From NCBI GenBank assembly GCA_945874145.1, contig CAMCFN010000004.1:69407-133406 (forward strand): a stretch of DNA of 64,000 nucleotides. Reading direction: 5' to 3'. The stretch is from Akkermansia muciniphila. GTDB taxonomy: Bacteria > Verrucomicrobiota > Verrucomicrobiia > Limisphaerales > SXTU01. The notes below the pieces were generated by a model, which saw only the letters and a list, made by a program, of their open reading frames with translations, was not told where the DNA came from and ran no database searches. A program made the position numbers and the translations under genes. Shown here one piece after another: positions 1 to 60,435 of the stretch (its first letter is position 1; each line of letters starts with the position of its first letter).

Positions 1-1058
<1,058 letters not shown>

Positions 1059-58861: not shown

Positions 58862-59019
58862 GTCGCGATAACACCGCCTGCGGGTCGGGCTGGAAAGCCA
58901 AATCAGCTTGTAGCACGCGGTGCCGCAGCGGATTTCACGGTTGACGCTTGGCTTCAGCGGCCCGTAGGCTTTTCTAATAACTGCTAGGCTGCGTGTCGCA
59001 CGTCCGGCGGAAAGCTCTC

Positions 59020-59229
59020 ATGGCCGAAGGTTATTGCGTCAAATGCAAGGCGAAGAAGGAAATCACCGACGGCGTTGAAGAGGTGATGAAGAACGGGCGC
59101 AAGGCCATCAAGGGTCGGTGCCCCGCCTGCGGCACGGTGATGTTCAAGATTTTGGGTGGCAAGGCGGCTGCCTCGGCCGTTCCCCCGTCGGCTTCGGAGC
59201 CGCCCGCTGCCACTCCACCCGCAGCCTGA
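59020..59229 (+). CDS. DUF5679 small zinc-ribbon protein
   Basis: 69 residues from ATG 59020. MAEGYCVKCKAKKEITDGVE, then KGRCPACGTVMFKILG: two CxxC knuckles as in the DUF5679 family of short archaeal/bacterial proteins. An Ala/Pro/Ser-rich tail follows (PPSASEPPAATPPAA). Function unknown. It ends 27 bases before the NDK gene and may be co-transcribed with it. Confidence 0.75.
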   Translation: MAEGYCVKCKAKKEITDGVEEVMKNGRKAIKGRCPACGTVMFKILGGKAAASAVPPSASEPPAATPPAA

Positions 59230-59256
59230 TCGGTCGGTTATTTCCCCCCAATTCTC

Positions 59257-60435
59257 ATGGCCCAGCAACTTGCCTACGTCATTGTCACGCCTTACACCCT
59301 GGCCAAATCCCGCACTGGCGGCATTTTGGCCCGGTTGATCAGCCGCACGGGTTTGGAACTCGTCGCCGCCCGCCTCTTTGGCGCGCGGCAGGAGCTGGTC
59401 GAGGAATACTCCAAGGTGGTCATCTCGGCGGCGGACCCGCAGGACCGGGGCGTGCAGCAGCTCATCCACGATTACATCGTTCGTGAATTGGGGCCGGACC
59501 CGAAGTCCGGCCGCCGTCGCCGGTGCATGATGCTCCTGTTCAAGGGCGAGGACGCCGTGCGCAAGATCCGCGCGGTGGTCGGCAACATCAGCCACACCAG
59601 CCGCACGGGTGAAACCATCCGCGACACGTTCGGGGACTACGTTCTCGATGAGCACGGGCAGGTGCGCTACTTCGAGCCCGCCGTGCTCGCCGCGCCGAAT
59701 GCCGACGAGGCCAATCAGAAGCTCAAGCTCTGGGCGCGTTATTCCGATGCCGATGGCGGCATCCTCGATGATTGCGTCGAGCATCCCACCGATGTGCCGG
59801 TGGAGCGCACGTTGGTTCTCATCAAGCCGGACAATTTCCGCTTTGCCACCGGCCGCCCGGGCAACGTCATCGACTTCTTCAGCCGCACCGGCCTTTACAT
59901 CGTCGGCATCCGCGTGCTCCACATGAGCACGGCGCAGGCGATGGAGTTTTACGGCCCGGTGAAGGACTTCCTCCGCACCAAGCTCAAGGGGGTGATCGCT
60001 GCCAAGGCCAAGGCCGTCCTCGAAAAGGATCCCAGCATCGGCTTCACCATCCCGCCGGAAGCCGAGGCCAAGCTCGCCGACATCCTCGGCCCCGTCTTTG
60101 GCGACAACCAGTTTGACAACATCGTGCGCTTCATGTGCGGTCGTTCGGAGTCGGAATGCTCGCCGGACCAGCTCGCCGAACCTGGCACCGAGAAGTGCAT
60201 CGCGCTGGTTTACGAAGGGCAGAACGCCGTCGCCAAAATCCGCGACGTGCTCGGCCCCACGGACCCGGCCAAGGCTCCTCCCGGTTCCATCCGCCGCGAG
60301 TTTGGCTCGAACATCATGGTCAACGCCGCCCACGCCAGCGATGCCCCGGACAGCGCCCGCCGCGAACTCGGCATCGTCAAGGTCGAGGCCAACGATTTAA
60401 AACGCGTCGTCGAGCAGTTCTGCGGCAGTTTGTGA
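59257..60435 (+). CDS. ndk: Two-domain nucleoside diphosphate kinase
   Basis: 392 residues, two NDK folds in tandem (about 1-185 and 186-392). The second has RTLVLIKPDNFRFATGRPG, FYGPVKDFL and MVNAAHASDAPDSARREL with the phospho-accepting His 359. The first keeps the fold (VIVTPYTLAKSRTGG, LISRTGLELVAARLF) but at the histidine position reads FEPAVLAAPNADEA, with no His. One active site, presumably with a regulatory or scaffold half; a single 140-150-residue domain is the usual NDK length. Confidence 0.8.
   Translation: MAQQLAYVIVTPYTLAKSRTGGILARLISRTGLELVAARLFGARQELVEEYSKVVISAADPQDRGVQQLIHDYIVRELGPDPKSGRRRRCMMLLFKGEDAVRKIRAVVGNISHTSRTGETIRDTFGDYVLDEHGQVRYFEPAVLAAPNADEANQKLKLWARYSDADGGILDDCVEHPTDVPVERTLVLIKPDNFRFATGRPGNVIDFFSRTGLYIVGIRVLHMSTAQAMEFYGPVKDFLRTKLKGVIAAKAKAVLEKDPSIGFTIPPEAEAKLADILGPVFGDNQFDNIVRFMCGRSESECSPDQLAEPGTEKCIALVYEGQNAVAKIRDVLGPTDPAKAPPGSIRREFGSNIMVNAAHASDAPDSARRELGIVKVEANDLKRVVEQFCGSL

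Follow-up and report, generated by a model that had tools for sequence, protein, structure and literature searches.

A two-domain nucleoside diphosphate kinase of Verrucomicrobiota that pairs a domain keeping the catalytic histidine with one lacking it

Nucleoside diphosphate kinases (NDKs) are among the most uniform enzymes in biology. Identical subunits, each a single small domain, normally make up the oligomeric enzyme, and single-domain NDK is the rule in bacteria. The residues that bind phosphate and ribose, together with the catalytic ones, are listed in PMC7554756. A tandem arrangement is found in the eukaryotic protein NME7 (FAP67), a component of ciliary microtubules that is also associated with the gamma-tubulin complex. 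According to PMC13256974 and PMC7024210, its domain A autophosphorylates, while domain B is inactive and yet required to bind the gamma-tubulin ring complex. In a search of the open-licence PMC literature, no paper dealing with a bacterial NDK of the tandem or dead/live type was found.

The window, that is, the whole stretch of 64,000 nucleotides analysed here (contig CAMCFN010000004.1), contains a gene for a fused NDK in which one half lacks the catalytic histidine (Table 1). When each half was scored alone against PF00334, residues 1-188 reached 32.3 bits and residues 179-392 reached 97.2 bits, both above the cut-off of 27. PF00334 was the sole domain type detected in the 392-residue protein (Pfam scan, E ≤ 1). 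The source genome (4.58 Mb in 157 contigs, 82% complete) was searched with the same profile at E ≤ 1, and the only matches were four pieces of this gene; the normal single-domain ndk that the first-pass annotation had proposed to look for elsewhere was thus not found in it. A fusion created by mis-assembly was ruled out by the 131 homologous rows, which come from many genomes, with no internal stops among the matches listed. A scan for promoters and terminators around the gene found nothing. On the opposite strand, an open frame of 449 residues (58984-60333, minus strand) covers most of the gene and looks like the shadow of a GC-rich coding sequence rather than a gene.

Table 1. Coordinates of the fused NDK gene, its parts and its upstream neighbour within the window
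Feature	Coordinates	Strand	Remarks
DUF5679 zinc-ribbon gene, neighbour	58993..59229	+	likelier start 59020; ends 27 bases upstream of the NDK gene
Two-domain NDK gene	59257..60435	+	ATG start, 392 aa, 43.0 kDa; 131 homologous rows
First half, pseudo-NDK domain without catalytic His (residues 1-178)	59257..59790	+	PF00334, fold, Leu144
Conserved motif TPYTLAKSRTGG (residues 11-22)	59287..59322	+	replaces the K-P-D loop; Thr11 for the active-site Lys
Conserved motif GETIRDTFGD (residues 118-127)	59608..59637	+	Arg122 is the equivalent of M. tuberculosis Arg104
Conserved motif YFEPAVLA (residues 138-145)	59668..59691	+	strand of the would-be catalytic His; Leu144 instead
Second half, catalytic NDK domain (residues 179-392)	59791..60432	+	PF00334 97.2 bits, nine active-site residues
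Extended helical hairpin (residues 244-294)	59986..60138	+	between alphaA and beta3 of the second half
NAAHASD motif	60322..60342	+	Asn356, catalytic His359 (codon 60331-60333), Ser361, Asp362

The family alignment comprised 131 rows, namely the window protein, 80 loci of a contig search and 50 others. The 80 loci were the best 80 of 141 relatives in one scan of genome contigs, and their record titles were verrucomicrobial, lentisphaeral, kiritimatiellal, plain "bacterium" or apparently wrong names. All nine listed site residues are present in the second half (K190, Y232, R329, T335, R346, N356, H359, S361 and E370). Y232, R329 and T335 were conserved in 131/131 rows, and K190, R346, N356, S361 and E370 in 130/131, with one gap each. 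H359 was found in 129/131 rows, the exceptions being one gap and one Gln, which belongs to genus g202. From this conservation we infer that the second half is the active NDP kinase of the cell, working via a phosphohistidine. By established NDK chemistry, the gamma-phosphate of an NTP would be passed to His359 and from there to an NDP. The full protein scored below the cut-off of every NCBIfam NDK equivalog (NF001908 and others; best 116 bits, cut-off 155), and the model places an enlarged helical hairpin above the nucleotide cleft. Both observations could point to a live half that is a protein histidine kinase or some other phosphotransferase instead of an NDP kinase, but the conservation of nine out of nine active-site residues argues against this, and we consider it highly improbable. 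The helical insert itself is dispensable, since the double NDKs of family f63 (L138, L139 and L146) are without most of it.

The first half was aligned by profile to single-domain verrucomicrobial NDKs. In this alignment Thr11 corresponds to the active-site Lys, Tyr51 to the Tyr, Arg105 and Arg122 to the two Arg, and Pro141 to the Asn, while Leu144 occupies the position of the catalytic His; the strand that carries it is preceded by a nine-residue insert. The first half has lost the catalytic His together with the active-site Lys, Thr and Asn, and retains the fold and the pocket Arg and Tyr residues. A His at the active position of this half, which would contradict the proposal of one dead domain, was looked for and found in none of the 131 rows at columns 139-146. 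His133 of the window protein was ruled out as a substitute nucleophile, since just 12/131 rows have a His there. The pocket residues were found in 114/131 (Tyr51), 89/131 (Arg105) and 125/131 rows (Arg122), and the family-level motifs TPYSLxKSRTGG, GETIRDTYGD and YFEPAV are almost invariant. Mean conservation of the pocket loops was 0.794 against 0.550 in the remainder of the half, and 0.36% of circular shifts equalled it; the contrast is indicative only and biased upward, because the loop borders were picked partly after viewing the conservation. Judged from its sequence, the first half is constrained and gives no sign of decay. The retention of Tyr51, Arg105 and Arg122 makes binding of an anion or nucleotide plausible, and it would suit a regulatory sensor, with the live half tuned by a nucleotide or other ligand on the dead one. 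Of the nucleotide site, however, the dead half lacks the Lys, the Thr and the Asn.

An AlphaFold2 model of the full protein, built on an 88-row alignment, had a pLDDT of 93.2 and a pTM of 0.90, so the mutual placement of the two domains is predicted with confidence. In the model, Leu144 and His359 take equivalent positions, each in the middle of a short strand (143-145 and 358-360, respectively). When folded on its own, the first half had a pLDDT of 93.6 and matched NDKs at Z of about 15-16, with a Z of 16.3 and an rmsd of 2.0 over 128 residues against the M. tuberculosis enzyme. The second half (178..380) matched single-domain NDK structures at Z 15-17, mostly over 110-139 residues and with identities up to 40%. 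The first-pass annotation had claimed an NDK fold for both halves and the catalytic His for the second one only. Modelling of both halves bore out the former, in agreement with the PF00334 matches on each, and the profile alignment and the model agreed on the latter.

In Foldseek, the top 11 matches were chains of ciliary or flagellar doublet microtubules, all with two NDK domains and about as large as NME7/FAP67. With VIA-align, both domains of the predicted model could be placed at once on Chlamydomonas FAP67 (6u42_5O), with a Z of 25.8 and an rmsd of 3.0 over 277 residues (1..380). In the BFVD, the four matches at E ≤ 0.001 were chains of 129-170 residues. The confident model suggests that the two domains stand side by side in an NME7-like manner. 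Such an arrangement would also be expected of a scaffold, that is, of a dead half that does nothing more than substitute for a dimer partner and stabilise the live half, its pocket motifs being structural. PMC7554756 describes functional NDKs as dimer-based oligomers, which is in line with this reading. A (S/T)RTG turn at the alpha1-beta2 junction is common to both halves and was seen in 0/17 of the single-domain sequences listed for comparison; it likewise suits the scaffold, and it favours an internal duplication or a symmetric contact.

A sample of 387 genomes, evenly drawn from the phylum, was screened for both kinds of NDK. A match of the full protein at E ≤ 1e-35 was required to score a genome as double; in one genome so scored, G367, the gene lies at the end of a contig and shows no more than its second half. 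It was found that 169 genomes carry the double NDK, 120 a single-domain NDK only and 98 neither, and a single-domain NDK besides the double form was present in 2/169 (G135 and G369). A hand count of the 58 genomes of the order gave 40 with the double form only, 11 with the single form only, 6 with both and 1 with neither. The comparison with other verrucomicrobial NDKs thus revealed that the double form is widespread in the phylum and mostly the sole NDK of its genome. The rule of single-domain NDKs in bacteria, invoked in the first-pass annotation, is general knowledge; within this phylum the double form is common, at 169/387 genomes. The two types avoid each other, with Fisher p values of 5e-36 (phylum) and 6e-7 (order) in tests that ignore shared ancestry. 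This is the behaviour of interchangeable enzymes, and it speaks further against a live half that is something other than an NDP kinase. The expression "sole NDK" is weaker than it sounds, because 98/387 genomes are without a clear NDK and no catalytic one was found in two genomes of g202, so that NDK activity is not essential. The enzyme seems to be dispensable in several lineages.

Several observations were made in the course of this survey. With PF00334 at E ≤ 0.01, nothing was matched in genomes G105, G031, G071, G074 and others, which are 95-99% complete. A further NDK-like protein, P0002 (L156:1318-2526, minus strand, genome G072), has an open frame of 403 residues with one NDK domain that is split by a very long insert and retains KPE and NGVH. 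Its relatives occur in 21/387 phylum genomes, and in several of these both usual NDK types are missing. Loci L019, L020 and L021 represent another type of single-domain NDK, longer by some ten residues, which occurs in genomes G014, G022, G024 and G044 (PF00334 E about 1e-35). Verrucomicrobial double NDKs with 67-88% identity were also found in six MAG records titled Proteobacteria, Klebsiella pneumoniae or Akkermansia muciniphila (L037, L039, L041, L042, L044 and L058), and these titles look wrong. In viral contigs, 29 stretches matched a pattern and no relative was among them; among 40 plasmid records, none had 80% of the query covered at one place.

In a tree of 99 rows and 140 columns, the dead halves, the live halves and the single-domain NDKs were each found on one side of a branch, with supports of 100/100 for the dead halves and 98/92 for the live halves. 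This pattern fits one old origin of the live/dead pair. The tree, which has no outgroup, is compatible with a dead half that arose as a copy of the live half and equally with another origin. Profile probabilities favoured neither, at 98.7 between the dead half and the single-domain NDKs and 98.5 between the dead and live halves.

The first-pass annotation had suggested that the DUF5679 gene just upstream may share the function of the NDK. Among the best 80 of 141 relatives, 68 have DUF5679 41-228 bases upstream of the double NDK, and a hand count placed it next to the gene, on one contig with it, in 43/46 double-NDK genomes of the order. The suggestion is nevertheless not supported in this form. 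By the same kind of count, 8/11 genomes of the order with only a single-domain NDK also carry DUF5679, in other neighbourhoods, for instance before genes that we take from their sequence to be panC-like or glgP-like. In the deeper double-NDK branches it is absent beside the gene. At 10/11 deep loci (L103-L109, L111, L112 and L114) another gene, which by its sequence is presumably aspartate-aminotransferase-like, starts within about 115 bases downstream of the double NDK. As adjacency varies by lineage, neither neighbour is a demonstrated partner, and DUF5679 was rejected as such. No papers on DUF5679 were found in the open-licence PMC literature.

Two genera, both known from MAGs, lost opposite sites, one genus for each direction. 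Genus g202 (L174, L175 and L177) has Gln for His359 in 3/3 species. In one of its genomes, G402, the Lys, the second Arg, the Asn and the Kpn loop are also lost, and the frame is still open. The dead-half motifs are retained in this genus: of 16 positions, its three genomes match the window protein at 16, 16 and 14. G306 and G402 share an identity of 0.659 in the dead half and of 0.519 in the live one, the reverse of the usual order; live-half identity averaged 0.723 (sd 3.4, minimum 56%) across 835 other family pairs whose dead halves are about as similar. No catalytic NDK was found with PF00334 in G306 and G402 (MAGs 80-82% complete); the third, G443, which is 56% complete, was searched with the window protein only. 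In genus g206 (L176 and L178-L181) the dead-half motifs are gone in 5/5 species, while the live half keeps 9/9 site residues. Across the 5 pairs compared, the dead halves were 37-53% identical and the live halves 76-89%.

Since g202 and g206 lost opposite sites, either half's site can go without the other's. A scaffold predicts joint decay, but the two halves decay separately in g202 (3/3) and in g206 (5/5). The N-terminal part of the g206 dead half is still NDK-like, so a scaffold role could persist there; as the whole explanation, it appears unlikely to us. A regulator should not outlive the catalysis that it regulates, and in g202 the dead half does, which leaves the sensor slightly less probable again. 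A mere prop or regulator of catalysis would not be expected to be kept after the active site was lost, and the dead half probably serves a purpose of its own that does not depend on catalysis. The reading that we favour, with moderate confidence, is that of a bifunctional two-domain NDK, in which a live NDP kinase is joined to a dead half that acts as its built-in partner and has a binding role of its own. The dead half would replace the partner subunit that NDKs normally need, as the model and the analogy with NME7 suggest. It may also bind something in its rebuilt pocket, be it a nucleotide, another anion or a protein partner, as its conservation and the dissociation would indicate. This putative binding would be independent of the catalytic half, given the lineages that lost one site and kept the other. 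A more specific proposal sees the dead half as a binding domain that was derived from the NDK pocket and selected for a function of its own, was joined to the kinase early in much of the phylum, can outlive it when catalysis is lost and has a counterpart in NME7; in our judgement this proposal has an even chance of being correct.

The double NDK is real and occurs across the phylum, as a moderately surprising variant of a known enzyme; the strongest new evidence is the double dissociation. Much of the phylum has replaced a uniform NDK by a fused live/dead pair. The two genera with opposite site losses offer a ready comparison set for pseudoenzyme functions that go beyond aiding the twin domain. 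For annotation, it should be considered that the window protein lies under the NCBIfam cut-offs and that proteins of this kind can be missed or mis-scored.

The second half shares its fold and active site with the bacterial single-domain NDKs (PF00334), such as the Ndk of M. xanthus and M. tuberculosis. The protein differs from these in that its chain comprises two domains, of which one is dead, that its alphaA-alpha2 hairpin is extended and that it scores below the NCBIfam equivalog cut-offs. The NDK of Pyrobaculum aerophilum (1xqi) is an enlarged NDK chain too, of 182 residues, and matched the first half with a Z of 15.4 and an rmsd of 2.6 over 137 residues; unlike the double NDK, it is a single domain. 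In the open-licence PMC literature, a search on the Pyrobaculum enzyme yielded nothing beyond a review in which it is not described. NME7/FAP67 is the best structural match that spans both domains and, in the predicted model, has the same mutual arrangement, with tandem NDK domains of which likewise one is competent and one inactive. In contrast to the bacterial protein, in which the NDK domain starts at residue 1-3 and no DM10 was found (Pfam scan, E ≤ 1), NME7/FAP67 has a DM10 domain, and its live domain comes first instead of second. Identity was 22% to NME7/FAP67 and 27-40% to single-domain NDKs, which makes convergence more probable than descent. A live/dead tandem of NDK domains, as known from cilia, thus also exists in bacteria, probably by convergence. 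If the proposed binding role is true, the double NDK would be a bacterial counterpart of NME7, whose inactive domain is needed for gamma-tubulin complex binding, with the difference that the bacterial protein is usually the only NDK of its genome.
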